Of a stretch of 64,000 bases of DNA, positions 14,521 to 63,573 are shown piece after piece (positions within the stretch are counted from its first letter, which is position 1; each line of letters begins with the position of its first letter). Source of the stretch: a virus. The stretch spans positions 32,333 to 96,332 of IMG/VR virus record IMGVR_UViG_3300017989_000082. One strand, written 5' to 3'. Under the pieces are notes generated by a model, which ran no database searches, was not told the origin of the DNA, and saw only the letters and a list, made by a program, of their open reading frames with translations. A program made the translations under genes and the position numbers.

Positions 14521-14685
14521 GTGCTTGGAGTATTATGTAGTATGGTTAATTTTTTTGCCATTTATGCTATTAACCAGATCACTCTTGCGCTTAATGCGGC
14601 TATGCCATTTTTATGCATTTGTTTACAATGGTACGTTCCGAGCCGAGGCAATGCAAATTGCCAAATGGCTCTGGAAGGTTTTTGA
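14521..14685 (+). CDS. Possible small membrane protein (GTG start, 54 aa)
   Basis: A GTG at 14521 sits about 6 nt after AAGGGGG (14509-14515). The frame encodes 54 residues with a long hydrophobic stretch (VNFFAIYAINQITLALNAAM, then PFLCICLQWYVP). It ends at 14685, before the ATG chosen for the tail chaperone. The other open frame here is also hydrophobic at its start but lacks a good start codon. It could be a real small membrane peptide or a leader that regulates the chaperone gene. Confidence 0.35.
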   Translation: MLGVLCSMVNFFAIYAINQITLALNAAMPFLCICLQWYVPSRGNANCQMALEGF

Positions 14686-14740
14686 ATACATATATGGAAA
14701 AGAAGAACTGAACGAACTGGTAGAACAAAGGAGACAAGAA

Positions 14741-15151: not shown

Positions 15152-15159
15152 CCCAAGCC

Positions 15160-15669
15160 TTGCGGCTTGCGATCCGCTGGGCAGTTTATTTAGAGGTTAA
15201 CAAGGGGAAGTCTGACTCTTACAATTGCGTGTATTGTGAGTCTAAGGGATTACAGAAGCAAAGAAATTGCGACGGAGATTTAACAGGGTATTGCAAACGG
15301 GGAGGTCATGGCTATTTTGAGTTTGAAGACCTCATTATCAATGATAAAGGGCAGGCCGTTTGTCCGGCTTGCGAAAAACCCGTTGAAATGCCCTTTAAGC
15401 TCCAACTTGGTAAGACTTTTTGGATATGGCGGTGCCCGGTATTGGAGATTGACCATTCGGCCATTCACCTAATACAAATGGTTAACTGGTCAGAGGCCAT
15501 GCACCAAACACCCTCTGGCCTGCCGCTATACGATGAAAGTAATTTGTTTTTTGAAATTCGCAATTTCGTTTTAAACGAGCAAAGAACTGCTCGTGAGGAA
15601 ATGGAAAAGAAACAACCAAGCGATGCACGCAAAAGTAAACAGGGTTCCCGCCCCCGAAAGAGGCGTTAA
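15160..15669 (+). CDS. Tail assembly chaperone C-terminal extension (GT-like), probably made by -1 frameshift
   Basis: The frame is open from 15103 and lies -1 relative to the upstream chaperone gene. Its first possible start is TTG at 15160, without a well-spaced Shine-Dalgarno. A G5AAG tract at 15139-15146 lies just before the upstream stop (15149-15151) and permits slippage. The 169 residues contain putative zinc ligands (CVYC, CPAC, plus single cysteines). A later SGLPLYDESNLFFEIRNFVL segment is like the C-terminal part of phage tail chaperones. The basic tail ends SRPRKRR. Reinitiation at TTG after the stop is the alternative. Confidence 0.6.
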   Translation: MRLAIRWAVYLEVNKGKSDSYNCVYCESKGLQKQRNCDGDLTGYCKRGGHGYFEFEDLIINDKGQAVCPACEKPVEMPFKLQLGKTFWIWRCPVLEIDHSAIHLIQMVNWSEAMHQTPSGLPLYDESNLFFEIRNFVLNEQRTAREEMEKKQPSDARKSKQGSRPRKRR

Positions 15670-15697
15670 CCCTGTTTTCTTTTTTGGAGCTTGATAA

Positions 15698-36192: not shown

Positions 36193-37167
36193 ATGAGAGT
36201 TGAACTTATTAACATTCCTTTTACCGATAATATTTCAAGTAGACTTGATCCGCCGCTGTTTTTGCTACAGATTGCCCCGATATTCCAAAAGGAAAATTAT
36301 GCCGTCAGGGTTAACGACCTTAATGGTATTAACAGGAATCATTGGGGCTTTGGAAGTTGTCCGCTATACGTTATATATGCCGACATAAACAGCTACAGCG
36401 TAGCGGTTGAAATATCCAGAATGTGCAGGGAAATAAACAACAAGTCTGCCATTATTGTTTGCGGTAGTGGTCCCAGCAAGTATACTGGAAAATATGCAAA
36501 CACAAGAAGTTTCAATGTTGTTATAAAAGGAGAGGCAGAGCTTTCGGTTGCCAATTTTCTTACGGATATAATCCACGATGTTGACAGCGTTCAGCATGTG
36601 TATAGCGAAGAGGTTAGGAATGTAAATCGTTTACCATTTCCAGCCCGCAATCTTGTTGAAATGAATACCTATGCCCGAAGGCTTGATGGCATGAGAGCCA
36701 CAATGATCATGGGTAGCCGGGGAAGTCCTTTTGGCCCTACATGGCTATGTAAAAAATTAAAGCTGTTCAGCATCAACAGAATAAAGAACGAGGTTGTTGG
36801 AGTTGTTAATAAATATGGAATAAAAAATTTCTTTTTTGGTGACACAACCTTTACCTTTAACGAGCAAAGAGCATTAGATATAGGTAAAGTTATGGCCAAT
36901 AAAAACTTGCTTTTTGGCTTTAATGATGTTATATCAGAAGTTAAGCTTCCGCTATATAAAGAGTTAATAAGGTTGGGAGCTAGAGAGGTCTTCATTAACC
37001 CAATCGGAGCATCAAGCCAAGAGGAGGTTTCAGAACTTAAGAGCCAGATTGCATCTGAAACCGGCATGCGGGTTATTGTCCGCAAGGATGCCAAGTACCA
37101 AGATAGAAGGGGCTCTAATAATGGTAAGGGAAACAACAATGGAAAACAAGAAGATAGTATGCTTTAA
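36193..37167 (+). CDS. B12-binding-type radical SAM homologue lacking the Fe-S cysteines
   Basis: 324 residues from the ATG at 36193. Residues 1-125 follow the cobalamin-binding N-domain (PPLFLLQIAPIFQKENYAVR, IIVCGSGPSKYTGKY, VVIKGEAELSVANFL). Then come LPFPARNLVEMNTYARR and the radical SAM entry, but the usual SRGCPxxCxxC reads SRGSPFGPTWLC: all three cluster cysteines are replaced by Ser, Pro and Leu. The rest (KYGIKNFFFGDTTFTFNEQR) retains the barrel. It cannot bind the normal [4Fe-4S] cluster there, so it is either non-catalytic or repurposed. The C-terminal 25 residues are a short Asn/Gly/Lys-rich tail. Confidence 0.75.
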   Translation: MRVELINIPFTDNISSRLDPPLFLLQIAPIFQKENYAVRVNDLNGINRNHWGFGSCPLYVIYADINSYSVAVEISRMCREINNKSAIIVCGSGPSKYTGKYANTRSFNVVIKGEAELSVANFLTDIIHDVDSVQHVYSEEVRNVNRLPFPARNLVEMNTYARRLDGMRATMIMGSRGSPFGPTWLCKKLKLFSINRIKNEVVGVVNKYGIKNFFFGDTTFTFNEQRALDIGKVMANKNLLFGFNDVISEVKLPLYKELIRLGAREVFINPIGASSQEEVSELKSQIASETGMRVIVRKDAKYQDRRGSNNGKGNNNGKQEDSML

Positions 37168-38062
37168 TGAAAGACTTGGCGACCGCATTATTGTTAAATA
37201 TTTTGCAGAAAATGTAAAAACAGAATTTCCAGAATTTGAGCTATACGCCTTCCAGAGTTTTAAATACCCTTCCGTAAAAGGCTTTGATATGGAGCTTTGG
37301 GCTCCTGATTTATTTGCCGGGTTTCTTTACCCTGAAGATGGATACCGCAGTTGCCTTGATGCCGAAAATAAAACTGGCTACAGGGTTCTTTATCCAACTT
37401 GGGGGAATCTGTTTGTTTATGCCCCGAACATGATCAGAAAAACGGGGCGCTACCCTACTCTTGAAATTCCTGATCGCTACAAGCAATGGCTTGATACGGA
37501 ATTTGATGAAATGGTCTGGCGTCACTATTGCCGTTTCGCAGTTGGACCGCCTGCCGGTATAGTTGTGTGGCATATTCTTACAGATGCCCCTTACAGTAGG
37601 AGCCGCAACCACAACTTTAAACACCACGCCGCGGCCATTAAAATGCTGGCCAGAAAGTACCCTGATTGGCTGTTTATCCGAATAGGCCGTATGGATGCTG
37701 AGAATGGACTTCTGAGGGGTGATTTCAAGAACATAATTGACCTAACCCAATATGATTTAACGCCGTCTAGGTCTATCTCAGTGATATCCAGGGGTGATAT
37801 TTACGTCGGGGGTGATACAGGCATGACCCATGCGGCCAGCGCGTTGAAAAAGAAGATAGTGGCCATATGGGGTGATATAACCCACATGCTCAGGGACAGA
37901 TCAACAAGAAATAACATACAGCCCGGCGATTGGAATAGCGGCCCCTATGTTCCAGAAGAAGATTGCTATATTTTACGCCGTAACGGCGGTGAGCATATTA
38001 TGCGGCCAATTTATACAGCAGAGGAAATAGTTAATGGCGTAGAACATTTCATCAAGAGGTGA
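37139..38062 (+). CDS. Glycosyltransferase family 9-like (heptosyltransferase type)
   Basis: 307 residues from the ATG at 37139, chosen because AAGGGA lies 8 nt upstream; an ATG at 37121 is possible. The start overlaps the previous gene by 29 nt. The N-terminus is MENKKIVCFNERLGDRIIVK, the GT9 start with GDRI in place of GDxL. The C-terminal donor-binding motif GGDTGMTHAASA (residues 224-235) followed by IVAIWG is the strongest marker. GT9 enzymes transfer heptose or other sugars to lipid A core or similar acceptors. The acceptor here is unknown. It may initiate or extend a glycan on virion or host surface. Confidence 0.75.
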   Translation: MENKKIVCFNERLGDRIIVKYFAENVKTEFPEFELYAFQSFKYPSVKGFDMELWAPDLFAGFLYPEDGYRSCLDAENKTGYRVLYPTWGNLFVYAPNMIRKTGRYPTLEIPDRYKQWLDTEFDEMVWRHYCRFAVGPPAGIVVWHILTDAPYSRSRNHNFKHHAAAIKMLARKYPDWLFIRIGRMDAENGLLRGDFKNIIDLTQYDLTPSRSISVISRGDIYVGGDTGMTHAASALKKKIVAIWGDITHMLRDRSTRNNIQPGDWNSGPYVPEEDCYILRRNGGEHIMRPIYTAEEIVNGVEHFIKR

Positions 38063-38066
38063 CATC

Positions 38067-38786
38067 ATGGATCCATTCTCCGTAATACTGATATCGTATT
38101 TCAAATTGCATAGGCTGAGGGCGTGTGTTGATTCAATGCTTGGGCAAATGCGCCCGTGCGACGAACTTGTCATCATTGACAACTCTGTCAGCACTGCCGG
38201 TGAAGTGGATCTAGAATTGAGAGAATATCTTGGTGATGTTTTTAATAGGAACTTTGATGATGACTCTCCTGCAATTAGCATATATTTGAATAAATGGAAC
38301 CATTTTTTTACAAGCTCGGTTAATGAGGGCATAAGAAAAAGCAGCAACGAATATATCTTCCTTGTAAATAATGATACCGAGGTTGTTACTCCAAATACAT
38401 TTAAGACCCTCATTAATTTTGCAAAAACTGATCCGACCATTGCCACGGTCACGCCCGTTACGCTTCAGAGTAATGACAGTGTGTATTGCAGCGGAGCTTA
38501 TGGCGGTGGAGCACACAAAAAAGATAAAATAAAAGAGCCGCGGGAAGCAGAATGGAGCAATTTCGCTTTCGTGCTTATTAAAAGAAAAGTCATAGAGAAA
38601 ATTGGCCCAATGGCTCTTGGCAGAAAAAAAGTCGGTACAAGGGAGGTTGAATTAACCCATTATCATTCGGATGAAGAATTCTGTAGAAGAGCCACAGGGC
38701 ATGGTTTTACTCATTGGGTCCACCCCTTGATTGTTAGACACTATCACAAAGAGGATGAAACATGGCAACATGGCAATACTGGTTAG
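38067..38786 (+). CDS. Family 2 glycosyltransferase (GT-A)
   Basis: 239 residues. Features of GT2: SVILISYFKLHRLRACVDSM, DELVIIDNSVS, then NEGIRKSSNEYIFLVNNDTE, where NNDTE stands for the metal- and donor-binding DxD. The C-terminal region has HYHSDEEFCRRATGHGFTHW, the catalytic ED/DEE-type motif. GT2 enzymes invert the anomeric centre and use nucleotide sugars. It overlaps the following membrane/AdoMetDC frame by 25 nt. Confidence 0.8.
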   Translation: MDPFSVILISYFKLHRLRACVDSMLGQMRPCDELVIIDNSVSTAGEVDLELREYLGDVFNRNFDDDSPAISIYLNKWNHFFTSSVNEGIRKSSNEYIFLVNNDTEVVTPNTFKTLINFAKTDPTIATVTPVTLQSNDSVYCSGAYGGGAHKKDKIKEPREAEWSNFAFVLIKRKVIEKIGPMALGRKKVGTREVELTHYHSDEEFCRRATGHGFTHWVHPLIVRHYHKEDETWQHGNTG

Positions 38787-38890
38787 GGTGGGGAATTGTA
38801 TTTATACTGTCGGTTACTGTGGTGTTCGGTGCGGTATATTTTGCCGTACATTTATTTGTTAAACTTTTGAAAAGAAAAGGAGCATTTGGT
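38762..38890 (+). other. In-frame N-terminal membrane-anchor extension of the AdoMetDC gene
   Basis: Starting at the ATG at 38762, the frame encodes 43 residues that run without stop into the decarboxylase. They contain a strongly hydrophobic helix (WLGWGIVFILSVTVVFGAVY) followed by LLKRKG. The start lies in the end of the GT2 gene (25-nt overlap) and has a weak upstream GAGG. Two alternative products, soluble and anchored, could be made from two starts. Confidence 0.45.
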
Positions 38891-39301
38891 ATGGAAACAA
38901 CAGTTAAGGCCCGTGGCCTGCACGCAATTGTGGACCTTGCTGGCTGTCCATCAGGCCTGCTCGGGGACCAAGAAATACTCACCAGTATCATGAGGGAAGC
39001 AGCCAACAAAGCACAGGCAACAATCATGAAGGTGGTAAGTTACCGGCTAGGTGGTCCTCCCAGCCTGCACCCTGCCGCAAAGAAGACTCCTGACGGCATC
39101 AGCGTATACGTTGGCCTTGATGAAAGCCATGTCACCTGTCACACTTATCAGGAGGACGGCCTTATTGCCATAGATATTTTTGTCTGTGGTCGTAATGCGA
39201 TTGCCCGCGCCGCGGTAGGGTATTTATTGAAGGAGATTCCACATAAAAAACAAAGCGTGCATTACATTAACAGGTTTGTGGAGGAAGATGATAATGAATA
39301 A
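38891..39301 (+). CDS. Pyruvoyl-dependent S-adenosylmethionine decarboxylase homologue
   Basis: 136 residues from the ATG at 38891, which has AAAGGAG 10 nt upstream. The frame is open back to 38762, adding 43 residues with a transmembrane helix, so a membrane-anchored form is possible. Marks of bacterial AdoMetDC: HAIVDLAGC, LDESHVTCHTYQEDG and IDIFVCG. Ser79 (self-cleavage between Glu78 and Ser79 forms the pyruvoyl group), His84 and Cys99 align with the catalytic Ser, His and Cys. The usual HTxPE is HTYQE, and a Pro/Gly-rich insert precedes the core. Some homologues decarboxylate ornithine or arginine instead, so substrate is open. Confidence 0.8.
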   Translation: METTVKARGLHAIVDLAGCPSGLLGDQEILTSIMREAANKAQATIMKVVSYRLGGPPSLHPAAKKTPDGISVYVGLDESHVTCHTYQEDGLIAIDIFVCGRNAIARAAVGYLLKEIPHKKQSVHYINRFVEEDDNE

Positions 39302-39509
39302 GGGAATAAAAATTGTCAACGATACTGGTAACCCAATTGATACGAAAATTTATGATTCTGATGGCAACGATATTTCTTCTGCTCTTCAGGTCCGTAAAAT
39401 ATCCATTGACATCACTAGATACAGATTAGAGGCTATCCTGATTTGCGTTGACCCAACTATCAGCCTGCGGGGCGTTGAGGGAATTGCTATTAAGGAGGAG
39501 GAGCCGTAA
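39294..39509 (+). CDS. Small hypothetical phage protein, 71 aa
   Basis: The ATG at 39294 lies 7 nt after GAGGAAG and overlaps the AdoMetDC stop by 8 nt. The 71 residues (KGIKIVNDTGNPIDTKIYDS, DGNDISSALQVRKISIDITR) form a short beta domain like a common set of small phage proteins that begin 'I-x-I-x-N/G-D-G'. Its stop overlaps the next start by one base. It may be a structural partner of the cassette, for instance an acceptor protein, but nothing proves that. Confidence 0.55.
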   Translation: MNKGIKIVNDTGNPIDTKIYDSDGNDISSALQVRKISIDITRYRLEAILICVDPTISLRGVEGIAIKEEEP

Positions 39510-40189
39510 TGGACATTCATGTCCTAACACCGTTTTATCGTGACTATTTGGCTCCTACACTTATTCATTACCTGGAGCCAATGGGAATAATATGGCATCC
39601 CATTGTGACGGTTGAAGAAAGATGGCCTACGGTAGCGCAGGCTAAGGGCCACAAAAAACAAAAATATTGGATTCATCCGTTAGTTGTTCCAAAGCTTGCT
39701 CCCGGTATGAATGCCTTTAAGAAAATTAACGACTTCATTGAGATGCGCCATATTGTTGACGATGATTATTATGGCTTCATGTGCGATGATAACATGTACT
39801 CCCCTAATTTCTTTGATGTAATTCGCCAGCAAACAGCTAAGATTCTCATGTTCTCAATGTACCGTGGTGATACGGTTCCTGATCGAAAGGGAGAGGTGCC
39901 ACACCATGCCACTACCCTAAGAATTGCTGAACCGTGGGATGTGCGCCACGGCAACATTGATATCATGCAGTATATTATCAAGGGAGAAATATTCAGAAAG
40001 TATCGTTTTGATGTGTACGATCATGCTTACAGTGATGGCCACTACGCTGAGCGCCTGAAGTTTCAACACCCGGATGATATTCAGTTTCTCCCTAACCTAT
40101 ATTGTTTTTTCAATTATTTTCAGCCGGGTCGCTATACTGACCCGAGCAAATTTTTAGATCCTACATGGAAAATGCCTAAGTTTGTATGA
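39509..40189 (+). CDS. GT-A-like glycosyltransferase, paralogue A
   Basis: 226 residues starting MDIHVLTPFYRDYLAPTLIH. A DxD-like centre is present as HIVDDDYYGFMCDDNMYSP, and later QYIIKGEIFRKYRF followed by YSDGHYAERLKF corresponds to the acceptor-side part of GT2-like enzymes. It is about 45 percent identical by eye to the gene at 40816, and their first 75 nt are nearly the same. An HNH endonuclease gene sits between them. Donor and acceptor are unknown; the glycosyltransferase call rests on the motif pattern and neighbours. Confidence 0.65.
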   Translation: MDIHVLTPFYRDYLAPTLIHYLEPMGIIWHPIVTVEERWPTVAQAKGHKKQKYWIHPLVVPKLAPGMNAFKKINDFIEMRHIVDDDYYGFMCDDNMYSPNFFDVIRQQTAKILMFSMYRGDTVPDRKGEVPHHATTLRIAEPWDVRHGNIDIMQYIIKGEIFRKYRFDVYDHAYSDGHYAERLKFQHPDDIQFLPNLYCFFNYFQPGRYTDPSKFLDPTWKMPKFV

Positions 40190-40201
40190 GCGGAGTGATA
40201 A

Positions 40202-40819
40202 ATGAGAACATGTAAGATAAAAAATTGTGATAAAAAACATCACGGGAGGGGATATTGCAAAAGGCATTATTTACAATTAAAAAGATATGGAAAAATTTTA
40301 AAAAGAACAAGGCGTGATCCAAATAGGTTTATTTTTGAAAAGAATATTTGTAAGATAGAATTATATAATCATAAAAATGAAGTGGTTGGGTATGGAATAA
40401 TAGATAAAGAAGATTATAGAAAAATCAAAAAATATAAGTGGTGTTTATCGCCACAAGGGTATGTTGTTACTTGGGATGGAAAAAGATTGCATAGACTTAT
40501 AAATAATACTTTCTATAATTATGACACTGATCATATTGATAACAATAAACTAAACAATAGAAAGGAAAATCTTAGAGTTTGCACTAAGCTGGAGAATTCA
40601 AGGAATGTTGGCTTGAGTAGTAATAACTCTTCTGGATTTAAAGGTGTGTGGTGGGAAAATGGAAATAAAAAATGGAGAGCATTAATAAATGCTAATGGTA
40701 TGGCAATTCATTTAGGGTGCTTTGCGAATAAAAATGATGCTGCCAGAGCATATAACTGTGCAGCCATTAAATATCATGGTGAATTTGCAAAACTCAACAG
40801 AGTAAGGATGGCAATATGA
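40202..40819 (+). CDS. HNH homing endonuclease with AP2 DNA-binding domain
   Basis: 205 residues. Residues 1-35 have a CxxxxC-H-C-H zinc-like start (CKIKNCDKKHHGRGYCKRHY). The HNH nuclease core lies at about 95-128, with LHRLI, DTDHIDNNKLNNRKENLRV. The AP2-like domain is at about 145-198 (GFKGVWWENGNKKWRALINA, FANKNDAARAYNCAAIKYHG). This architecture is usual for free-standing homing endonucleases in phages. The gene is visibly richer in A/T than its neighbours, and it separates two paralogous genes, the signature of a mobile intruder. Its stop overlaps the next start by 4 nt. Confidence 0.9.
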   Translation: MRTCKIKNCDKKHHGRGYCKRHYLQLKRYGKILKRTRRDPNRFIFEKNICKIELYNHKNEVVGYGIIDKEDYRKIKKYKWCLSPQGYVVTWDGKRLHRLINNTFYNYDTDHIDNNKLNNRKENLRVCTKLENSRNVGLSSNNSSGFKGVWWENGNKKWRALINANGMAIHLGCFANKNDAARAYNCAAIKYHGEFAKLNRVRMAI

Positions 40820-41475
40820 AAGACATTCATGTGTTGACACCGTTTTACAGAACTCATTTGGCCCCAACCCTTATTCATTATCTTGAGCCTATGGGGGTGC
40901 AGTGGTATCCTATTTGCGAAGATAGACATTATAGTAGTGAGTTTTCTTCCCGTAATTGGATTACCCCTCTTCTTGTTGATGCTCTTTCTGAGAGCGATCA
41001 GTGTTATATTCGCTTTAATCAATTTCAGGATGCTCATTTGGTAGACGATAATGATTATTATTGTTTCATGGGCGATGACGACGCATACGAGCCGGGCTTT
41101 TTTGATATCATCAGAAGACAAACGGCTAAGATTCTCATTGTCTCTCTTTCTCGCGGCGATAGAATACCTGAGTGTGACCCTGAAAAGCACCCGACCAACC
41201 CGCTTATCATGAATAGCATTCGTGATGTGCAGGTATGCAATATTGGTTTGCCGCAGTATATTATTAAGGGGGAAATATTTAAACAGATGCGTTTCCGAAA
41301 TGACCACTGCTGGAATGATGGCCACTTTGCCGAGAAGCTTAAAGAGTGGTTCCCGAACGACTTTCACTTCTTGCCTGACACATTCGTTTTCGGAAATTAT
41401 TTTCAAGAGGGAAGGTATTTCGGAACACAATGGATGTTGAAACCAACATGGCGGCACCCGAGGATAATTAAATGA
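40816..41475 (+). CDS. GT-A-like glycosyltransferase, paralogue B
   Basis: 219 residues starting MKDIHVLTPFYRTHLAPTLI, paralogous to the gene at 39509. The central motif reads VDDNDYYCFMGDDDAYEPGF and the C-terminal part QYIIKGEIFKQMRF, then WNDGHFAEKLKEW. Divergence from paralogue A is spread over the whole length, so the copies are not recent. It begins a run of six 4-nt stop/start overlaps through 45473. Enzymatic role is inferred as for paralogue A. Confidence 0.65.
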   Translation: MKDIHVLTPFYRTHLAPTLIHYLEPMGVQWYPICEDRHYSSEFSSRNWITPLLVDALSESDQCYIRFNQFQDAHLVDDNDYYCFMGDDDAYEPGFFDIIRRQTAKILIVSLSRGDRIPECDPEKHPTNPLIMNSIRDVQVCNIGLPQYIIKGEIFKQMRFRNDHCWNDGHFAEKLKEWFPNDFHFLPDTFVFGNYFQEGRYFGTQWMLKPTWRHPRIIK

Positions 41476-42443
41476 AACGCTTTCGTGAAAAAAATGTTGA
41501 ACCGCTTGGCCCTGCCCTTCCATTAAGTACGCCATGGGTAATTAATGTTGATCCATCATCAATGTGTGATCTGAGATGCAAATATTGCTTTCACTATAAA
41601 AACAGAAACCCGAAGAATTATGGCATGATGGAGTGGAGTCTTTACAGGAAGCTCATTAGCGACATAAAGAAATTTCCCCGTAAGCTTAAAACATTGCGCC
41701 TGTATGCTTTTGGCGAGCCAATGATGAATCCATTATTTGCTGATATGGTTCGCTTGGCTAAAGATGAAAATGTATCTTTTGACATTGACACCACTACAAA
41801 TGGAATGTTTTTAAACCCATCAAGAAACCTTGATATAATCAATGCCGGTATTGATAGAATCAATTTATCGGTAGTTGGCGTGAGTGACTCGAAATATTTG
41901 GAATTCTCTGGAAGAAAGGTTAATTTTGTTAAGTTCGTCGAAAACGTTTCGCACCTGTATCACAACAGAAGACAATGCATACTGTTTATTAAGCTCAATG
42001 GCGATATTGTTTCAACAGAAGATCAGGAAAAGTTTCTTGAAATATTTACACCAATCTGCGATGGCATAGCCGTTGAGCATGTTATGGATTGTTGGTATGA
42101 TTTTAAAATGGAAGGAATTATTCGCAACAAGGATGTTGGCGTTTACGGCCAGCCGTTAACGAAGGTTGATGTGTGCCCGTATATATTTTACTCCTTCTGT
42201 GTTCAGTATGATGGCGAGGTTAGTGCCTGCTTTTTGGATTGGAACAGGAAGCTTATTATTGGCGACGCTAAGAAAGAAAAGCTTAAAGATATTTGGAATG
42301 GTAAATCCCTAAGAGGCATTCGTAAACTCATGTTGTGTAAGCAAAGGGATTGCATAATTGCCTGTAAAGGTTGTAATCAGCTTGAGGCTGGGAACCCTGT
42401 TAATATTGATCCCCTGGCAAAGGAGCTATTGGAGAAGATATGA
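41472..42443 (+). CDS. Radical SAM enzyme with SPASM-type C-terminus
   Basis: 323 residues. The radical SAM cluster motif CDLRCKYC is at Cys32, Cys36 and Cys39, binding the SAM-cleaving [4Fe-4S] cluster. Further barrel elements are LYAFGEPMMNPLF (the GGEP-like strand) and TTTNGMFL. The C-terminus carries SPASM-type cysteines: CPYIFYSFCVQYDGEVSACF, GDAKKEKLKDIWNGKSLR, then CKQRDCIIACKGC, for auxiliary clusters. SPASM proteins modify peptides or act on sugars and other small molecules. The substrate is unknown. 4-nt overlaps tie it to the neighbours on both sides. Confidence 0.85.
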   Translation: MKRFREKNVEPLGPALPLSTPWVINVDPSSMCDLRCKYCFHYKNRNPKNYGMMEWSLYRKLISDIKKFPRKLKTLRLYAFGEPMMNPLFADMVRLAKDENVSFDIDTTTNGMFLNPSRNLDIINAGIDRINLSVVGVSDSKYLEFSGRKVNFVKFVENVSHLYHNRRQCILFIKLNGDIVSTEDQEKFLEIFTPICDGIAVEHVMDCWYDFKMEGIIRNKDVGVYGQPLTKVDVCPYIFYSFCVQYDGEVSACFLDWNRKLIIGDAKKEKLKDIWNGKSLRGIRKLMLCKQRDCIIACKGCNQLEAGNPVNIDPLAKELLEKI

Positions 42444-43633
42444 GTTGTCCAGTATGCGGTAATTTGTCTATTGATGAAATTCTGTTTCTTGAGTGTGGGA
42501 AGTTTGATGACTCGCCAATATATGACCCCCTCAGGATTGCGACCTGCACTGTCTGCGGGCATGTTTATAATTTGCTGACTGAAAACGAAATATTGGGGTT
42601 GATGCAATACTATGAGACAGAATATGCAATGAATAATCTATACTCCCCAAACATCAATGGGGATACACCAGGAAGCATAGGGCGTAATAGTGTGGAACGG
42701 TACGCTTTGCTTTATGAATTCATTAGCGGTTGGATTACCCGCCACGATCGGGTTCTTGATGTAGGGTGTGCGGCAGGTGGTTTCCTGCAAACACTTAAGA
42801 AGATGAACTATAGGCACTTATCAGGAATTGAATTTTCAGAACCTTATGTTGAGGCGGCATCAAAACTTCCCGATATAGAGATAAAAAAAGGCATTGCGGA
42901 AGAAATTCCCTACGATAATGACAGCTTTGATTTCGTTGTTGCCGATCAGGTTGTAGAGCACCTTGCTGATCCAAGCTCTATATTCAAAGAAGCAAGGCGT
43001 GTGCTTGATGACAGGGGACTTCTTTGCATTAGCGTTCCCAATGCCATATTTTACGAGGAAACACACTTTTTTGATTTTTACTGGTTTCTCATGCGGGAGC
43101 ATATTCAACATTTCGACTTAATACATTTGGCCATGATTGCTGAAAAACATGGCTTCACCCTTATTGACAGCAAGACTACATTTTCAAATATGATTAGCGA
43201 TCGCTCTATTCTCCCTAACCTTTCCACACTGTTCATGCTGAAAGATACTAATGTTTGTAGGTCTTGGCTGCCATCAGGTCTTGGCGAAAAAATGAAGAGC
43301 TACATTAAAACCAGCTATGAAGATTTGAACAAGAAAAGAAGGTTTATCGGCCATATGGCCGATACGAAAATGCCGCTTTATGTTTATGGCATAGGCAGGG
43401 AGTTTATGTACCTGTATAAAAACACTCGCCTTCCTGAATGCGAAATTCCTGGCCTCATTGATGACACCAAATATAAACAGGATTTCCTCAAGTTTGATGG
43501 AAGAAATATCCTTGGAAGCGAATTTATAAAATATACCAGTGAAAATGTAATAATTACTGCTACGGCCCATTCAGCGAAGCTTAAGGCAAGGCTCAACGAT
43601 TTAGATGTCAAGGGAAAGATCATTGAGATATGA
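42440..43633 (+). CDS. SAM-dependent (sugar) C-methyltransferase-like protein
   Basis: 397 residues in three parts as in TDP-sugar C-methyltransferases. Zinc knuckle: CPVC at 3-6 and CTVC at 36-39. Middle Rossmann methyltransferase: VLDVGCAAGGFL at 105-116, then FDFVVADQVVEHLADP. C-terminal Rossmann-like domain: MPLYVYGIGREFMYLYKNTR, then GRNILGSEFIKY. This order (zinc-binding, methyltransferase, C-terminal domain) suggests methylation of a nucleotide-linked deoxysugar. It sits between a SPASM enzyme and a GT4 enzyme, with overlaps of 4 nt to both. Confidence 0.8.
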   Translation: MSCPVCGNLSIDEILFLECGKFDDSPIYDPLRIATCTVCGHVYNLLTENEILGLMQYYETEYAMNNLYSPNINGDTPGSIGRNSVERYALLYEFISGWITRHDRVLDVGCAAGGFLQTLKKMNYRHLSGIEFSEPYVEAASKLPDIEIKKGIAEEIPYDNDSFDFVVADQVVEHLADPSSIFKEARRVLDDRGLLCISVPNAIFYEETHFFDFYWFLMREHIQHFDLIHLAMIAEKHGFTLIDSKTTFSNMISDRSILPNLSTLFMLKDTNVCRSWLPSGLGEKMKSYIKTSYEDLNKKRRFIGHMADTKMPLYVYGIGREFMYLYKNTRLPECEIPGLIDDTKYKQDFLKFDGRNILGSEFIKYTSENVIITATAHSAKLKARLNDLDVKGKIIEI

Positions 43634-44910
43634 AACATGAAATACTCCATATAGCGGTTCATCTGGGTGGCGGCGTAGGGTCAGTTGTTATGAATTGGAT
43701 TAACACTGACACCATTAATAACCATACTGTTCTCTGCTTAAACGAGAACTACTATTACAAGGAGAAGTTTCCAGAAGATACCGTTAAAGAAAAAATGAGA
43801 GGCAGAACCGGAGAAATTCTTAATCATATAAGCAATTCAGATGTTGTAGTGGTTCACTTTTGGAATCACCCCATGTTGTACGAGCTTCTTGTCAACACCT
43901 ATCTGCCGCCTTGCAGGCTGGTGATGTGGTCGCATGTTTCAGGGTTGAGCGCGCCATATGTGTTCCCGCATAAACTTATAGAAATGTCTGATTGCTTCAT
44001 ATTTTCATCTCCTATAAGTTACAAGGCGAAAGAAATTGAAAGCTTGCCCGCTAAACAACGCCGGAAGCTAAGCCATATATGGACAACTGGTGACATTAAT
44101 AACTATTCAGAAATTGAACCGCTTAAACACGACGGCTTCAACATTGGCTTTATTGGCACATTGGATTATTCAAAGCTACACCCAAACTTCATAGATTTCT
44201 GTAGTAGGATTAACATACCAGATGTGAAGTTCATCATGTGCGGCACTGGCTGCGATGAAGAGCTTATTCGGCGACAAGTCAAAGACCGCGGCATGGGGGA
44301 CAAATTCATCTTTACTGGCATTATTGAAGACATCAAGCCCTATCTTGCTATTATTGATGTGTTTGGCTACCCGCTTAACCCGAATCACTTTGGAACCTGC
44401 GAGCAAGTACTTGGCGAGGCTATTGCCGCGGGGGTTATTCCGGTTGTCATGAAAAACCCTGCCGAGGAATATATACTTTACCAGAGCATTGTCAAGTTTG
44501 TTTGCAGTACTGAAGAAGACTACATAAACAACATTGAGCTGTTATACCGTGATCGGAAGGAGCGGGCCAAACTTATTTCATACATCCAGAAGCATGTAGT
44601 TGGCCTGTATGATACTGAAAAAATGGTGATGTCATGGAACCTTGTTTTCAGTGATATGATCAGTAATGTTAAGAAGACAAAAAAGGAATGGCCTAAGCCA
44701 AACCCCGATCAGGTATACTTAGGGCATAAAATATTTATTGAATCGCTTGGCGAGTATGGTAAAATACTCGAAGGGGGTTCGCACAAAATCATAAGAGCTC
44801 TTTTTGGTGAAAATCGCCAATGGAGAAGCAGAAGCAAGGGAAGTGTAATTCAATATTCAGAATGTTTTCCTCAAGATGCTACACTTAAGGAGTGGGCTAA
44901 GCTGATATGA
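43630..44910 (+). CDS. Family 4 glycosyltransferase (GT-B)
   Basis: 426 residues. N-terminal acceptor domain MKHEILHIAVHLGGGVGSVV; C-terminal donor domain with FNIGFIGTLDYSKLHPNF, KFIMCGTGCDEELIRRQV and the GT4 block NPNHFGTCEQVLGEAIAAGV, which holds the E-x7-E-type residues that bind the nucleotide sugar. A C-terminal extension of about 80 residues is special. It overlaps the genes on both sides by 4 nt. It is probably a retaining glycosyltransferase of the cassette. Confidence 0.8.
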   Translation: MKHEILHIAVHLGGGVGSVVMNWINTDTINNHTVLCLNENYYYKEKFPEDTVKEKMRGRTGEILNHISNSDVVVVHFWNHPMLYELLVNTYLPPCRLVMWSHVSGLSAPYVFPHKLIEMSDCFIFSSPISYKAKEIESLPAKQRRKLSHIWTTGDINNYSEIEPLKHDGFNIGFIGTLDYSKLHPNFIDFCSRINIPDVKFIMCGTGCDEELIRRQVKDRGMGDKFIFTGIIEDIKPYLAIIDVFGYPLNPNHFGTCEQVLGEAIAAGVIPVVMKNPAEEYILYQSIVKFVCSTEEDYINNIELLYRDRKERAKLISYIQKHVVGLYDTEKMVMSWNLVFSDMISNVKKTKKEWPKPNPDQVYLGHKIFIESLGEYGKILEGGSHKIIRALFGENRQWRSRSKGSVIQYSECFPQDATLKEWAKLI

Positions 44911-45473
44911 ATATTTTCAGGGAAATTTTCAGTAAATACGATACCGATAAGGTGAATGGCTCATACGAGCTTGCTTATGAAGATTGTTTTGCTCAAATAA
45001 GGGAGAATGTAGAGCTTGTTTATGAAATAGGTGTTAACCGTGGCGGCAGTGTTCAGGCATGGCGGGAATATTTTCCGAATGCCTTTATTGTTGGCCTTGA
45101 GATCGAAAAACGTATTTACCCTGACTGGAGTGGCATTAAAATAGAGTTTGGCGATGCTACTGATTATGATTTTCTCGGTGATGTGCTGAAAAAATATGGC
45201 AAACCCGATATTGTTATTGATGATGGCTCACACTTCGGTAAGGATATTATTGCTACTCATAATTTTCTATGGCGGCACACCGAGCTATGTTATGTCATTG
45301 AAGACCTTGGCACCCAAGATCCTGATTATAAGAATGGCTTTTATATGCCCGGCGGGTTCTCTGCAATGACCTTGGTGGATACAATGATTGAAGAGTTAAT
45401 GTTTTGTAAAAGAAAATGCAGTGCCATTAAACTTTACCATTCAATCTGTTTCATGTTTAAGGGAATACAATGA
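44907..45473 (+). CDS. Class I SAM methyltransferase, CmcI/sugar O-methyltransferase-like
   Basis: 188 residues. Motif I is VYEIGVNRGGSVQAWREYFP and the metal-binding centre is PDIVIDDGSHFGKDI. These match the CmcI/MycE-type family that O-methylates sugars and polyketides. The N-terminal YDTDKVNGSYELAYEDCF is also typical (tDK...H..Y). Only the core is present; there is no fused partner. It probably adds a methyl group to a sugar made by the neighbouring glycosyltransferases. 4-nt overlaps on both sides. Confidence 0.75.
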   Translation: MNIFREIFSKYDTDKVNGSYELAYEDCFAQIRENVELVYEIGVNRGGSVQAWREYFPNAFIVGLEIEKRIYPDWSGIKIEFGDATDYDFLGDVLKKYGKPDIVIDDGSHFGKDIIATHNFLWRHTELCYVIEDLGTQDPDYKNGFYMPGGFSAMTLVDTMIEELMFCKRKCSAIKLYHSICFMFKGIQ

Positions 45474-46561
45474 ATATTTTCGACTTTAAAGGCAAAAACC
45501 TTATTGTTATCAGCGGCGAACCTGATACTGGTAAGACTACAATGGCAAGGGAGCTTCATGGCAAGCTTCCAAATTCAGTAATTTTGGAGACTGATTGGCT
45601 TATTATTAGCCACATTAATATGGGCATACTGATTCCACCGGAAAAATACAAAGACACATATGGGAAAAACCTTGGCGCTGTTATTAACGAAATGTGTCTT
45701 GCGTGGAGAAATGACTTGCGTGATTTGCTCAAATTTGAGTTGCAGATTTTGTATTTTAATAATGACACTGTAATCACCGAAGGCTATTTGTGGGGAATAC
45801 CAGAGTTCAGGTGCATACTGATTGACTATGAAAATGTTTGCTTTATTCATAGAAGGAAGGATCGACAATTTACAATAACTATGAACGAGCATGGAAAGAC
45901 TGTTGGAGACCTTGCCATAAAGGATCAGGCCAACGAAGTTATCCAAGCTATTAAGGCTGATGCCATTGAGCGTGTTATTCCATCATACGGATGGTATCAG
46001 AGTTTTGATTTCCTGCCCAAGCCTGCTTCCAGTAACAGTGCTGGAAAACTTGCGGCTTTAAATTTGCCAGAGCATATGCTTCACGATACCGTTCTGGACA
46101 TTGGCTGCAACACTGGCTACTTCAGCCTTGAATGTGCTAGGCGGGGTGCAAAGGTCATAGGAATTGAGAAGATTGAATTCATAGTGGACATTGCCAAGCG
46201 CATTCAGCGCAATATATATTTTCAACCCAACGTGCGCTTCTATGCCATGGATACCACGGATGACCTTTCCCAGCTTGGCCGCTTTACATATATTCTTGTG
46301 CTTGGCTTGTTTCACTATATTGTGGATCAGGAAGATACACTAAATAGATTAATGAATATACTTTTGCCAGAGGGAAAACTTAAGCTGGAAGTTGGAATAC
46401 ACCCTTCTGAAGCAAATAAAACCATCATTGTTGACGGCAAGTCTTATCCAACCTTGAAGCGCCTCGAAAGCTGGCTTAATGGTTACGACTACAACATTGT
46501 ACCATCCGTAAATCAGGCTGGCGACGCCTTCCCGCGGTCTATGGTTACGGTAACGAAATAA
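45470..46561 (+). CDS. P-loop kinase-methyltransferase fusion
   Basis: 363 residues. Residues 10-180 form a P-loop NTPase of the small-molecule kinase type: LIVISGEPDTGKTTMARELH with Walker A at 16-23, LETDWLI and the strand TVITEGYLWG. Residues 195-363 form a class I methyltransferase: motif I VLDIGCNTGYFSLECARRGA at 208-227, then FTYILVLGLFHYIVDQED, resembling CmoB-like methyltransferases. A kinase joined to a methyltransferase in one chain suggests sequential phosphorylation and methylation of the same compound. The substrate is unknown. It closes the run of 4-nt overlaps. Confidence 0.75.
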   Translation: MNIFDFKGKNLIVISGEPDTGKTTMARELHGKLPNSVILETDWLIISHINMGILIPPEKYKDTYGKNLGAVINEMCLAWRNDLRDLLKFELQILYFNNDTVITEGYLWGIPEFRCILIDYENVCFIHRRKDRQFTITMNEHGKTVGDLAIKDQANEVIQAIKADAIERVIPSYGWYQSFDFLPKPASSNSAGKLAALNLPEHMLHDTVLDIGCNTGYFSLECARRGAKVIGIEKIEFIVDIAKRIQRNIYFQPNVRFYAMDTTDDLSQLGRFTYILVLGLFHYIVDQEDTLNRLMNILLPEGKLKLEVGIHPSEANKTIIVDGKSYPTLKRLESWLNGYDYNIVPSVNQAGDAFPRSMVTVTK

Positions 46562-46632
46562 AAACGCCTGTGGTTGATAAAGAGTATTGGCCATGCTATT
46601 ATAAAACATACCCTTTAATTAAGGAGGCACCA

Positions 46633-47682
46633 GTGCGCTTTGATGTATTTAACCCATATAAAATGTTGGCCCATACCGATAAAATAAGCAAAATTCTAAA
46701 ATATGAAAACGAGCCACCAATCAGTGTCAGCATTGACCCTACCAGCAAGTGTAATCACAATTGTATGTGGTGCAGCAGCTCTGGTTACAGAATGGACAAC
46801 AAAAACGTAAGCCTGTCGCCTGATATATTGAGAGCCCTATGTAATGAATTTAAGGATATGGGAATTGAGGGGGTATATTTCGAGGGAGGCGGAGAGCCCC
46901 TATGCAACCTAAGCACTATTCACGCTATTGAAAACCTGAAGCGCCTTGAAATACCTACTGGTCTGATAACCAATGGCGTGCTCCTTAAGAAGGGAAGGGA
47001 TATGGACTCCCTTCTTGAGAGTTGTGAATTTATACGAATCAGTATTGATGCCGCCAGCGCTGAAACCTATTATCATATACGCGGTGCGAACGATTTTGAA
47101 ACAGTGAGAAGAAATGTTGAAGAACTTGCTCGGCGTAAAATAAATATTAAAAGCTCTTGTGAGATAGGGTTATCTTTCCTTATATATAAAAACAATTATA
47201 CCGAGATTGAACAATTTGTTCGTATCTTCAGGGATGCGGGGGCCAACTATATTCAATTCAAGCCCGTCATCATGAATGAAGATTGGCTTGATGATCGCCT
47301 ATATGATTACCTTACCTATCACTTGTGGATGGTTGAAAACAAATATGCCAGCCCCGAATTCAGGGTTACGGCAAACATACGACGGCTCCGTGAGGTTAGG
47401 GACAGGTATCAGCGGCTTTATGGGGAATGCCTTGGCCATAATCTTGTGGCAATTATCATGTCTTCTGGCGAGCTGAGCATATGCTGCCAGCACAGAGGAG
47501 TCAAACCTTTAACGTTTGGAAATCTTCGGGTAAATAGTTTTAGGGAGATATGGAATGGCAAGGCTAGGCAGGAAGCTATTAAGAAGATTAACCTCAGCAG
47601 ATGCCCTACCTGTAAATACGAGTCATATAATCAAATGCTCTGGGCTATGAAGTACCCTAACAAACATGCCTGCTTTCTATAA
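46633..47682 (+). CDS. Second radical SAM enzyme, SPASM-like
   Basis: 349 residues from a GTG at 46633, chosen because AAGGAGG lies 5 nt upstream; another GTG at 46570 would add 21 residues. Cluster motif CNHNCMWC at Cys40, Cys44 and Cys47. Barrel elements: GVYFEGGGEPLCN, PTGLITNGVLL, FIRISIDAASAETYYHIRG. C-terminal SPASM-like part: LYGECLGHNLVAIIMSSGEL, CCQHRG, then FREIWNGKARQE and CPTCKY. It is the last gene of the plus-strand set, before the convergent terminator. Confidence 0.85.
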   Translation: MRFDVFNPYKMLAHTDKISKILKYENEPPISVSIDPTSKCNHNCMWCSSSGYRMDNKNVSLSPDILRALCNEFKDMGIEGVYFEGGGEPLCNLSTIHAIENLKRLEIPTGLITNGVLLKKGRDMDSLLESCEFIRISIDAASAETYYHIRGANDFETVRRNVEELARRKINIKSSCEIGLSFLIYKNNYTEIEQFVRIFRDAGANYIQFKPVIMNEDWLDDRLYDYLTYHLWMVENKYASPEFRVTANIRRLREVRDRYQRLYGECLGHNLVAIIMSSGELSICCQHRGVKPLTFGNLRVNSFREIWNGKARQEAIKKINLSRCPTCKYESYNQMLWAMKYPNKHACFL

Positions 47683-47699
47683 CGAGGCCCGTAGAAGCG

Positions 47700-47766
47700 C
47701 CTCAGAGCAAAAAGAAGGGCCGAAGCGGGCCTGAACCCGCCCCGGCCCATGAAAAGGCGTCTGAGG
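47700..47766. terminator. Nested inverted repeat, bidirectional terminator at the convergence point
   Basis: Outer arms CCTCAGA (47700-47706) and TCTGAGG (47760-47766) enclose an inner hairpin: GGGCCG (47717-47722) pairs with CGGCCC (47743-47748), and GCGGG (47725-47729) with CCCGC (47736-47740). The element lies between the stop of the last plus-strand gene (47682) and the stop of the last minus-strand gene (47795). It lacks long T-runs but is symmetrical, so it can act on both strands. Confidence 0.65.
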
Positions 47767-47794
47767 GCATCCTGATGGCCAATGCTGGTGTTTT

Positions 47795-55117: not shown

Positions 55118-56380
55118 CTACTTCTTTGTTTTCTTCTTTTTCTTGGCCGCGGCTTTCTCCTTCAGTTTTTTCTCAAGGGACTTCTTTCCCTCGTCTTCGT
55201 CGTCCTCTTCCTCTTCTTCTTCCTCGTCGTCGTCTTCTTCGTCTTCTTCTTCCTCGTCGTCCTCTTCCTCTTCTTCTTCCTCGTCGTCCTCTTCCTCGTC
55301 GTCCTCTTCCTCGTCCTCGTCGTCCTCTTCCTCGTCTTCGTCCTCGTCGTCCTCTTCCTCGTCCTCGTCTTCGTCCTCTTCTTTTTTCTTCGCCGCCGCC
55401 GCCTTCTTTTTCGGTTTTTTCTTCTTGGTATCTTCTTCCTCTTCCTCTTCCTCCTCGCCTTCAGTATCTACTTCGCAAGCTTCTTTTGAGGCGCACTTAT
55501 CGCATTTCTTTTTGCCATCTTTGTACTCTCCGTAGCATTCTGGAAGATCGCTGTCTTCATCATCTGGAGCATCTTCCAGGTCCATACCGGCCATGATGGC
55601 TTTGATTTCCTCAATGCTTTTGGGTACGCCAACAACAGTGAGGTCAATAAGCTTTTCCTCTATTCGAGCAATGACCTCGTCGGGAAGCACTATTGGCTTC
55701 TTTAGGGCCTTAACCTTCTCATAGCTGATTGAGAAGGGATCCCCCTTTTTGGCTTGCTTCTTGGTGAACTTGATAGGGTACATGGCCTTGGGGTCGGTAA
55801 TGTCGCCTATGTCTTCAAACTCACCAATGATTGCTTCATGAATGGTGGTGCCGCAACTCATTACCATGATATCCGAAATGCAACCGTCTTTGAAGTCACA
55901 ACGGTTGCAACCCCGTTTTTTTATGGCTTTAGTGTTTTCCTCGCCGGGGTGATCAATAAAGCACTTCGGCACTTTGGGCATTTCGTCATCCAGTACCAGT
56001 GCAATTAGATCAATGACTCCGTAATAGAACCGGCTTCCACGTTTTCGCTTGTTGGCAATATCTTTTCTTGACTGCTTACTGCTTGACCAGTCTGCAAAGT
56101 TCTGCTCGCACTGCGGGCACTTTTCAGCCGGATCATCCAGCGTCATGCGGCGACAATTGAACTGACTTTTGCTTTCGGGGCCGCAATTTCTGTGAACGCC
56201 GCGTTCAGCGTAAGGAAGGCCATCCATGTTGGGGTGATCATATAAAATTCCAACACAATTGGCGCCGATTTTTGTGGCATACCAATTTACCTTTCCCTTG
56301 CCTCGGCGCTTTTCCCTCTCTTCCCTGCTTTTCTCTCGCTTCTTTTTTTCTTTTCTGATCTTGCCTAAATTAACCGCCAT
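55118..56380 (-). CDS. Single-strand DNA-binding protein candidate with acidic C-terminus
   Basis: 420 residues from the ATG at 56380, which follows AAGGAGA; the frame is open upstream but there overlaps another gene. Residues 20-60 are basic, as in T4 gp32. Then come a core with a gp32-like zinc pattern (GPESKSQFNCRRMTLDDPAE, CPQC, CNRC, FKDGC) and about 120 residues of Asp/Glu with Lys blocks. An acidic tail is the hallmark of SSBs and gp32, where it binds partner proteins. RecA-like and polymerase genes are neighbours. The assignment is by architecture. Confidence 0.65.
   Translation of the reverse strand: MAVNLGKIRKEKKKREKSREEREKRRGKGKVNWYATKIGANCVGILYDHPNMDGLPYAERGVHRNCGPESKSQFNCRRMTLDDPAEKCPQCEQNFADWSSSKQSRKDIANKRKRGSRFYYGVIDLIALVLDDEMPKVPKCFIDHPGEENTKAIKKRGCNRCDFKDGCISDIMVMSCGTTIHEAIIGEFEDIGDITDPKAMYPIKFTKKQAKKGDPFSISYEKVKALKKPIVLPDEVIARIEEKLIDLTVVGVPKSIEEIKAIMAGMDLEDAPDDEDSDLPECYGEYKDGKKKCDKCASKEACEVDTEGEEEEEEEEDTKKKKPKKKAAAAKKKEEDEDEDEEEDDEDEDEEEDDEDEEEDDEEEDDEEEEEEEDDEEEEDEEDDDEEEEEEEDDEDEGKKSLEKKLKEKAAAKKKKKTKK
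55181..55392 (-). repeat. Low-complexity trinucleotide tract (GAN) encoding the acidic tail
   Basis: About 210 bp of nearly pure pyrimidine on the plus strand, made of CTT/CTC/GTC/TCC triplets, codes for Asp/Glu runs on the minus strand. Tracts of this type are prone to slippage and length change in whole codons. The tract may also form purine-pyrimidine triplex structures. Confidence 0.85.
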
Positions 56381-56405
56381 TTTTTTCTCTCCTTTCTCTT
56401 GGTAG

Positions 56406-56573
56406 CTAACCTTTTCTGCCGCCACCTTTTCCGCGGCCGCCGCCCTTGCCTTTGCCAGGACCACCCTTGTTGCAACCGCCGGTGTTTCTGCCGCCACCAC
56501 TACCACCTTTTACCCCGCTGCCATTTCCTCTTCCGTCCTGTGGGCGGGATTGCCCTCTTGGGTTATTAGCCAT
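56406..56573 (-). CDS. Glycine/arginine/lysine-rich small protein, 55 aa
   Basis: Read directly from the sequence. The ATG at 56573 follows GGAGG (56579-56583 on the plus strand as cctcc). The protein is MANNPRGQSRPQDGRGNGSG, then alternating Gly, Arg and Lys to the end, with one Cys. The order resembles RGG-box RNA- or ssDNA-binding tails. It lies directly upstream of the SSB candidate in the same operon, so a nucleic-acid-binding or condensate-forming role is plausible. Low complexity makes homology calls unsafe. Confidence 0.6.
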   Translation of the reverse strand: MANNPRGQSRPQDGRGNGSGVKGGSGGGRNTGGCNKGGPGKGKGGGRGKGGGRKG

Positions 56574-63023: not shown

Positions 63024-63083
63024 AACACCCCCTGCTTTCTATATTGGTTGTGATATTTCCATTATTTCTCCTAATTAAAAGTT

Positions 63084-63203
63084 GCCCTCGGCGGGAATTT
63101 AACCCGCTGCTCCTCAGCGATTACCTAGGCTCGCTGAAGTGTGTTATGCAAAGCAACCCAAAACAGCGTCCCGTAACAAGTTACTTCCCTACACCACGAG
63201 GGC
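63084..63203 (-). ncRNA. tRNA-like element with enlarged D-loop and anticodon loop (tRNA remnant or structured RNA)
   Basis: Read on the minus strand, GCCCTCG and CGAGGGC form a perfect 7-bp acceptor-like stem at the ends. Just before the 3' arm, GCGGG/CCCGC closes a 7-nt TTAAATT loop, a T-arm-like hairpin. Position 8 is T. GTGT at the start and ACAC 43 nt later would close a D-arm, with about 36 extra nt between TAAC repeats. CTTCA/TGAGG form an anticodon-like stem whose loop is 18 nt. Without the additional 36 and 11 nt the length would be 73. No 3' CCA is encoded, and the T-loop lacks C56. Confidence 0.4.
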
Positions 63204-63211
63204 ATAAATTA

Positions 63212-63355
63212 TTATAAATATTTTTCGACGTACTCACTCAAAGCCCTTCTTGCTTTTTCTTCGGTTTCATATGGGCCATATTTATCGGCCCATATTTCAT
63301 TCCAGAACCACCATCCTTCATCATCCTGAAAAACAGGGCCGCTTCCATTTTCCAT
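63212..63355 (-). CDS. Small acidic protein, 47 aa
   Basis: Read directly from the sequence. The ATG at 63355 overlaps the stop of the upstream gene by one base (TAATG). The protein has the pattern DDEGWWFWNEIWADKYGPYE, then TEEKARRALSEYVEKYL. This 'FW-x-E...GPY-x-T-x-x-x-A' form occurs in many small phage proteins of unknown function. It is eight bases from the tRNA-like element, on the same strand. Confidence 0.65.
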   Translation of the reverse strand: MENGSGPVFQDDEGWWFWNEIWADKYGPYETEEKARRALSEYVEKYL

Positions 63356-63573
63356 TAAAAGTTGCCCTCCGCTATATTGTGCAGGGCCAGAAGCATTCGC
63401 TCCCGGGTATCCAGCTTAACTAAGCCTAACTCAATTTGATTAAACAGAATCTTGCATAGTAAATAATGCACACACTCAATGAACTGGTCCGGGGACAAGC
63501 CTTCGTCGTTCTTGGCTTCGTTCTCAACGATCAACTTCATTGTGTGTTCTGGATTGGTGCTGTACTCGGGCAT
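63355..63573 (-). CDS. Hypothetical protein, 72 aa
   Basis: AAGGAG lies 9 nt before the ATG at 63573. The product is helical: HTMKLIVENEAKNDEGLSPD, then QFIECVHYLLCKILFNQIEL. No transmembrane segment or motif was recognised. It lies second in the leftward operon; its stop overlaps the next ATG by one base. Confidence 0.6.
   Translation of the reverse strand: MPEYSTNPEHTMKLIVENEAKNDEGLSPDQFIECVHYLLCKILFNQIELGLVKLDTRERMLLALHNIAEGNF

Follow-up and report, generated by a model that had tools for sequence, protein, structure and literature searches.

The described systems closest to the element examined here are tRNA itself (RF00005), tmRNA and species 1 RNA (rnaC) of phage T4. rnaC, which is found in Tequatrovirus and has homologues in other Straboviridae, is a real RNA, described in a passage of PMC9697503 as a late RNA validated by northern blotting, and passages of PMC3014915, PMC9697503 and PMC12685909 describe its role as unknown. 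The T4 RNA folds into an acceptor stem, a long hairpin, a second hairpin and a T arm beside the acceptor, and it did not reach the gathering score of any family when compared to Rfam. T4 rnaD was also considered as a parallel and was set aside, as it has no similar fold (z -0.83).

Homologues of rnaC were sought in a phage collection using blastn, where 718 and 675 records matched, and were taken from among the matches listed (60 each). The alignment of 13 rows includes T4 (L121:1409-1547) and 12 homologues chosen for divergence, and leaves out many near-identical Tequatrovirus copies. When the structure was applied to these rows 89.3 % of cells were paired, compared to 36–44 % when it was slid, though the structure was taken from the fold of T4 itself, which favours it over the slid versions. 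Changes on both sides were found for 29 of the 54 pairs, and none of 500 shuffles reached any of five measures, a test in which related rows can beat shuffles even without structure. The acceptor includes two U-U pairs in 12 of the 13 sequences, and Yersinia phage TG1 has a full 7 bp stem. In all 13 sequences, 6 nt in the apical loop of one hairpin (UUGACG) are complementary to 6 nt in that of the other (CGUCAA), with compensatory changes to UUGAUG/CAUCAA in TG1 and to UUGGCG/CGCCAA in Klebsiella phage Clarke. Judging from these sequences, a kissing loop between the two long hairpins of T4 species 1 RNA is likely; a full-text literature search on rnaC with kissing loops found nothing relevant.

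The window analysed here is a stretch of 64,000 nt (bases 32333-96332 of an IMG/VR virus contig of 96332 bases), and the element lies approximately 0.8 kb from one contig end (Table 1). A preliminary description had reported a tRNA-like layout for the 120 nt at 63084-63203, with coordinates and letters that proved correct when checked against the window sequence. The element as defined here includes one further base at each end, 63204 and 63083, which form an eighth pair outside the 7 bp acceptor stem. The layout was borne out, but the strand had been left unsaid and the layout holds only on the minus strand, a reading that fits the neighbouring ORFs taken as genes, which are also on the minus strand. 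The plus-strand reading (fold z -3.24) was rejected, as the geometry of the T arm and acceptor fits the minus strand. The perfect acceptor-like stem (GCCCTCG/CGAGGGC, all 7 bp paired) and the T-arm-like hairpin with a 7 nt loop in the expected place (GCGGG-TTAAATT-CCCGC, adjoining the acceptor) were both recovered, as were the pairings earlier considered possible for the D arm (GTGT/ACAC around a 46 nt loop) and for the anticodon arm (CTTCA/TGAGG). Copies of TAAC do bound the extra nucleotides of the D region, though the spacing measured is 37 nt rather than the approximately 36 nt claimed. The anticodon loop is indeed 11 nt over size at 18 nt (7 + 11), and 72–73 nt would remain after removal of the extras, in agreement with the earlier figure of 73 nt.

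Table 1. Features of the element and its surroundings (window positions)
Feature	Position	Strand	Basis
Candidate tRNA-scaffold RNA element	63083..63204	-	Sequence, fold, descriptor, model R1
Acceptor 5' strand UGCCCUCG	63197..63204	-	Six pairs with probability 1.0; end pairs 0.83 and 0.54
Acceptor 3' strand CGAGGGCA, then no encoded CCA	63083..63090	-	Sequence, fold
D arm: D stem GUGU/ACAC	63141..63194 (63191-63194 with 63141-63144)	-	Fold
D arm: 11-pair helix	63177-63187 with 63150-63160	-	Fold; 4-pair tip beyond
Anticodon-position hairpin: 9 bp CUUCAGCGA/UCGCUGAGG	63112..63139	-	Fold
Anticodon-position hairpin: 10 nt loop GCCUAGGUAA, two further pairs possible	63112..63139	-	Fold
T arm GCGGG-UUAAAUU-CCCGC	63091..63107	-	Sequence, fold
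dnaE, DNA polymerase III alpha, 1112 aa	59685..63023	-	phrog_405, E 1.1e-240
47 aa ORF just upstream	63212..63355	-	No PHROGs or Pfam match
Possible 7-codon leader ORF MEISQPI, AGGAG ahead of it	63039..63062	-	Sequence reading; candidate
Direct repeat copy 1, 19 nt, acceptor 3' strand and 3' flank	63074..63092		Repeat search
Direct repeat copy 2, last codons and stop of 72 aa ORF	63354..63372		Repeat search
TATAAT, 6 nt before 63204	63211..63216	-	Sequence reading
TTGAGT, 19 nt spacer to TATAAT	63236-63241	-	Sequence reading

Like tRNA, the element has its four stems (acceptor, D, anticodon and T) in register, together with U8, A14, A21, a variable loop of 4 nt and a discriminator A; T54, T55, A58 and C61 of the T arm are also tRNA-like. 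Unlike tRNA, in which C56 pairs with G19, it has an A at position 56, a D loop of 46 nt that is folded as a hairpin and an anticodon loop of 18 nt. Traits of a decoding tRNA are missing from this fold: the loop at the anticodon position folds on itself, starts with G32-C33 and has no U33, and there is no short D loop with a GG free to meet the T loop (UUAAAUU). The element probably cannot decode, because no 7 nt anticodon loop is left in this fold.

The minus-strand fold over 124 nt has an energy of -56.8 kcal/mol (z -4.88), and none of 200 shuffles was as good. All four arms are present in the lowest-energy fold of the element, namely an acceptor of 8 bp, the D stem, the anticodon stem (CUUCA/UGAGG) and the T arm, and 39 of 44 pairs have a probability of at least 0.8, the other five (0.54–0.72) closing or ending helices. 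The fold is unchanged inside a 215 nt stretch reaching the dnaE start. When the D region (63139-63194) was folded alone it reached -19.9 kcal/mol (z -4.13), which none of 200 shuffles equalled, and four of the 11 pairs of the D hairpin link the extra bases to bases 5' of the first TAAC copy. Four Watson-Crick pairs (GCGA/UCGC) lengthen the anticodon stem to 9 bp, unbroken and in register; folded alone, the anticodon region (63109-63138) gives a modest z of -2.06, with 7 of 200 shuffles as good. The GC content of the element is 54 %, compared to 32 % and 29 % in the flanks.

To gauge rarity, a cloverleaf descriptor was written that specifies a 7 bp acceptor, U8, a 4 bp D stem, A14, GG in the D loop, a 5 bp anticodon stem, a variable loop of 3–6 and a T arm with TT and A58, does not require C56, and leaves the D loop (7–60) and anticodon loop (7–40) free. 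On both strands of the 64 kb window it matched the element only, in two alternative pairings, and it had no matches on either strand of 400 dinucleotide shuffles of the 64 kb, though the descriptor was written after the element had been seen and the counts show the rarity of such a structure, not its rarity among all noticeable structures. A relaxed descriptor, applied to 96 loci, matched the element and one AT-rich place in L073 that was taken as chance; it missed all three of the ARAGORN tRNAs in the 96 loci and is, hence, strict. Only two of 4122 tiles (124 nt, 31 nt steps, both strands) reached -56 kcal/mol or lower, both at a hairpin between convergent genes at approximately 47.7 kb. None of the best 15 tiles by energy was at the element, because no tile fell on its exact frame, and with the tiles off that frame the ranking favours the element. 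The structure of the element is well supported by computation, as is the tRNA ancestry considered below, and, from the way the extra bases fold, the structure may have been kept by selection.

The hairpin that gave the two best tiles (47664-47787) is very stable and nested (-58.4 kcal/mol, z -3.71), lies between convergent gene sets and beside T-rich stretches, and is perhaps a bidirectional terminator.

Default ARAGORN (tRNA and tmRNA), run on the window, called nothing at the element, and no Rfam family reached its gathering score there. The RF00005 tRNA model did not match the element, and gave matches in all 14 control genomes; that this model and default ARAGORN are blind to the element is as expected for such long loops. 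Relaxed cutoffs had been advocated in the preliminary description, but when the Rfam covariance models were relaxed to E 10 the only result was a weak match to an lncRNA, which falls outside the element on the opposite strand. Four ARAGORN settings with introns or a lowered score gave no genes in the window, and the 80 % threshold without introns gave nothing at the element. At the 50 % threshold with introns to 100 there were 466 candidates in the window, and the one at the element (63081-63204, minus strand), a tRNA-Glu(ttc) with a 36 nt intron, was taken as weak; its parse differs, the D stem being weak and the variable region long. No tRNA was called across 96 kb of the contig.

A model (R1) was built from this single sequence and its fold. 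In an unfiltered search of 13 loci of T4-like phages, the best match was T4 tRNA-Thr (24.6 bits, E 5.5e-4); this alignment skips the long inserts and is in register at the acceptor, at U8, in the stems of the D and anticodon arms and in the T arm. Matches overlapped all eight annotated T4 tRNAs (5.1–24.6 bits). Background was gauged on 12.6 kb of phage polymerase-gene DNA in which ARAGORN finds no tRNA, where the best score was 6.4 bits; seven of the eight tRNA matches exceed the background and that to tRNA-Gln (5.1 bits) lies below its maximum. The element is probably tRNA-derived, because R1 finds T4 tRNAs above a tRNA-free background.

R1 also touches rnaC in seven of the 13 loci (5.2–13.7 bits), and T4 rnaC (13.7 bits) ranks below four of the eight T4 tRNAs. 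Since R1 ranks tRNA-Thr best and rnaC lower, it is a true tRNA, rather than rnaC, that the element resembles most. Conversely, a model of rnaC (R2) gave 11.3 bits at the element when 1 kb was searched unfiltered (E 0.0084); a filtered search of the whole 64 kb window had no match at E 10. What the two share is the order of parts: the acceptor is followed by a long hairpin where the D arm would be and then by another hairpin, and the T arm adjoins the acceptor. Both are phage-coded and have no decodable anticodon loop, and they are near in size (120–122 nt for the element, 139 nt for rnaC). Only rnaC has a 3 bp AGG/CCU stem directly after the acceptor and an A-rich linker between the hairpins, its T loop starts TTCGA in 11 of 13 rows, and the U-U mismatches of its acceptor are a further difference. 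The loop-loop pairing of rnaC (UUGACG:CGUCAA type) was not seen in the element, for which the best duplex between loops is -3.3 kcal/mol and 67 % of loop shuffles are as good. T4 rnaC also sits in a tRNA cluster, whereas the contig carrying the element is without a called tRNA. By analogy in layout the element possibly works like rnaC; the sequence models give no clear link that would make it a member of the same family. As for tmRNA, the element, at approximately 120 nt, is too short to be one; none was reported by ARAGORN and there is no Rfam match. It does share with the tRNA-like domain of tmRNA a full acceptor/T-arm half with the lower half replaced (PMC3985003).

On the evidence of its proteins, the phage is poorly related to phages of the searched collections. 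For DnaE, identity to the best phages and IMG/VR contigs among the matches listed is 28–32 %, and the terminase is 37 % identical to that of Brevibacillus phage Emery and 37–43 % to those of 11 IMG/VR contigs. Two contigs of nearly the same phage (G001 and G002) share 100 % terminase identity, and in the parts of them fetched the stretches matching the phage stop well before the element region. No relatives holding the element region were found in the searches made, and one copy of the element is known. An exact 17-mer of the acceptor/D region was found at five places in viral contigs, all unrelated on inspection, and searching with an exact 19-mer of the T arm found none. A blastn search of phages with the element to E 10 gave two records of one Acinetobacter phage (28 nt, E 1), which were dismissed as chance. 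For dnaE relatives in IMG/VR, the best 80 of at least 584 were kept (≤32 % identity), and R1 found only the element itself in 87 sources (the window, six loci of this phage's contigs and the 80 relatives). The 1 kb element region was sought in 10 of 13 records found via the terminase, and DnaE in all 13, with no match. R1 at E 0.01 also gave no match in 299 genomes from the phylum to which Brevibacillus massiliensis belongs, a result that shows little since the positive control was also silent, and none in three genomes with related terminases, where the positive control was likewise silent. The idea of a Ro-associated RNA (YrlA) was abandoned, as no Ro-type family was found among 20 window proteins scanned with Pfam.

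The first 9036 fetched bases of G001 are 100 % identical to window positions 9729-18764, and G001:60037-70393 (L113:9037-19393) stops matching the window from 18764, inside a 2382 aa ORF (15698-22846), a break that may reflect recombination or misassembly.

The element is found between the 47 aa ORF and dnaE in a compact run of minus-strand ORFs. The 188 nt gap directly before dnaE is the second largest of 15 gaps between listed ORFs, and the dnaE start codon is 59 nt 3' of the element. The candidate leader ORF, which has a good ribosome site, lies between the two. TTGAGT and TATAAT, with their 19 nt spacer, would make a weak promoter-like site with a predicted start at the 5' end of the element; this site was not listed in a promoter scan with spacers of 16–18, and a scan for a standard promoter or terminator at the element found none. 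The promoter scan found three sites, compared to 2.3 expected from shuffles, and TTGACT-17-TATAAT (11/12; 63980-63952) stands where the ORF run begins. The two copies of the 19 nt direct repeat have 18 identical positions, 16 in a row, and are 280 nt apart. Exact repeats of at least 16 were seen in none of 2000 shuffles of this 1.1 kb, and of at least 15 in six; comparable 16-mers within 500 nt were seen twice elsewhere in the window, in one case in a repeat-rich gene. The stretch comprising the 47 aa ORF and the element may have arrived as one unit, inserted or duplicated, or the ORF end carrying the repeat may be a remnant of another tRNA 3' end.

Further repeats and genes in the window were noted. 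A cluster of short exact repeats at 55197-55330 lies near the C-terminal end of a 462 aa ORF (55118-56506) that has no PHROG or Pfam match. The region 37049-47682 (plus strand) includes a weak family-9 glycosyltransferase match, two radical SAM/SPASM genes and two methyltransferase genes, and is apparently a modification cluster, unusual for a phage.

On balance, and with modest confidence, we favour the reading that the element is a non-decoding phage RNA gene on a tRNA scaffold. The 'new structured RNA beside dnaE' of the preliminary description is the version of it that we prefer, its interpretation as a whole being supported in part. Its 'tRNA with insertions' stands as to ancestry, as the stems are in tRNA register and R1 finds real tRNAs. 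A disrupted tRNA is less likely than was implied, the extra bases forming helices that lengthen the D and anticodon arms. In that explanation, a phage tRNA received two insertions, of approximately 37 nt in the D loop and 11 nt in the anticodon loop, and has been drifting since; we consider this doubtful, though clearly the strongest competitor. The stems in tRNA register, the TAAC copies bounding the D-loop extra, the loss of C56 and the single known copy are all consistent with it, as is the lack of any tRNA call on 96 kb of contig, which leaves no sign that the phage uses tRNAs. However, all four stems are intact, with 7–8 bp in the acceptor, the D-region extra not only folds (z -4.13) but pairs with bases 5' of the first TAAC copy, and the anticodon stem gains four Watson-Crick pairs in register; that two independent random insertions would both lengthen arms is unlikely. 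A recent insertion event that has not yet drifted is a possible variant. For an RNA gene we count the GC-rich element in an AT-rich gap and the strong folding of the D-region extra alone, and against it the single known copy, the origin of R1 from one sequence, the tRNA-Gln match below the background maximum, the loss of C56, the lack of a standard promoter or terminator at the element and of any tRNA call there by Rfam or default ARAGORN, the modest result for the anticodon hairpin alone, the likeness to rnaC stopping short of sequence models and of its loop-loop pairing, and the fact that an insertion that was itself hairpin-shaped would fold well too.

The position directly before dnaE raises the question of whether the element instead belongs to the dnaE messenger, as a tRNA-shaped leader, cut by RNase P or bound by protein, that sets dnaE translation or mRNA ends. 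The 188 nt gap, the start codon 59 nt on and the possible leader ORF after the element would suit this, and in the one 215 nt fold, made with no control, the 9 nt that follow the element are paired to early codons of dnaE, with the ribosome site enclosed by this pairing; a passage of PMC3014915 describes the T4 polymerase gene as under the control of its own RNA operator. Yet that fold has no contact between the element itself and the ribosome site, no known RNA family matches, and a plain hairpin would suffice, so that the tRNA scaffold would need another reason; we regard a cis element as improbable. Least credible by far is a working tRNA with one or two small spliced introns, despite the 72–73 nt left after the extras are removed and the tRNA-Glu(ttc) with a 36 nt intron that ARAGORN gives at its loosest setting, as that setting yields 466 candidates in the window and stricter ones none at the element. 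In the better fold the anticodon stem runs unbroken into the extra bases with no bulge-helix-bulge, and the loop is without U33. Group I and II introns are far longer than these inserts, which are far too short for either, and the phage looks bacterial (dnaE, terminase).

If the element is an RNA gene derived from a tRNA, the acceptor, T arm, D stem and anticodon stem would have been kept while the D and anticodon loops became long hairpins. It would be transcribed as part of the dnaE operon, from a start of its own, or both ways. RNase P cuts the 5' end of tRNA, and trimming and CCA addition follow at the 3' end; host tRNA-processing enzymes could act on the element through its intact acceptor/T-arm half, which would release a stable RNA of approximately 120 nt. 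This RNA may act in trans via the two long arms, presumably like T4 species 1 RNA, and could plausibly serve to occupy or misdirect a host factor involved in tRNA handling or cleavage, though this function is a guess.

Phage tRNAs have been linked to escape from tRNA-cutting defences in the abstracts of PMC10264068 and PMC11555353, and this tie provides a concrete hypothesis for the role of the element. By analogy, it is conceivable, but at present speculative, that phages have repeatedly made non-decoding RNAs from tRNAs by turning the D and anticodon loops into hairpins and keeping the acceptor/T-arm half, and that the element and rnaC, perhaps convergent, serve as decoys or guides for the host's tRNA-handling or tRNA-cleaving factors. 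A second phage RNA on the rnaC plan, in a phage without a called tRNA on its contig, would suggest that the plan itself is useful, and the element would be an independent object for tests of it. As default ARAGORN and Rfam miss the element, and Rfam misses rnaC, more such RNAs may be present but unannotated in phages.
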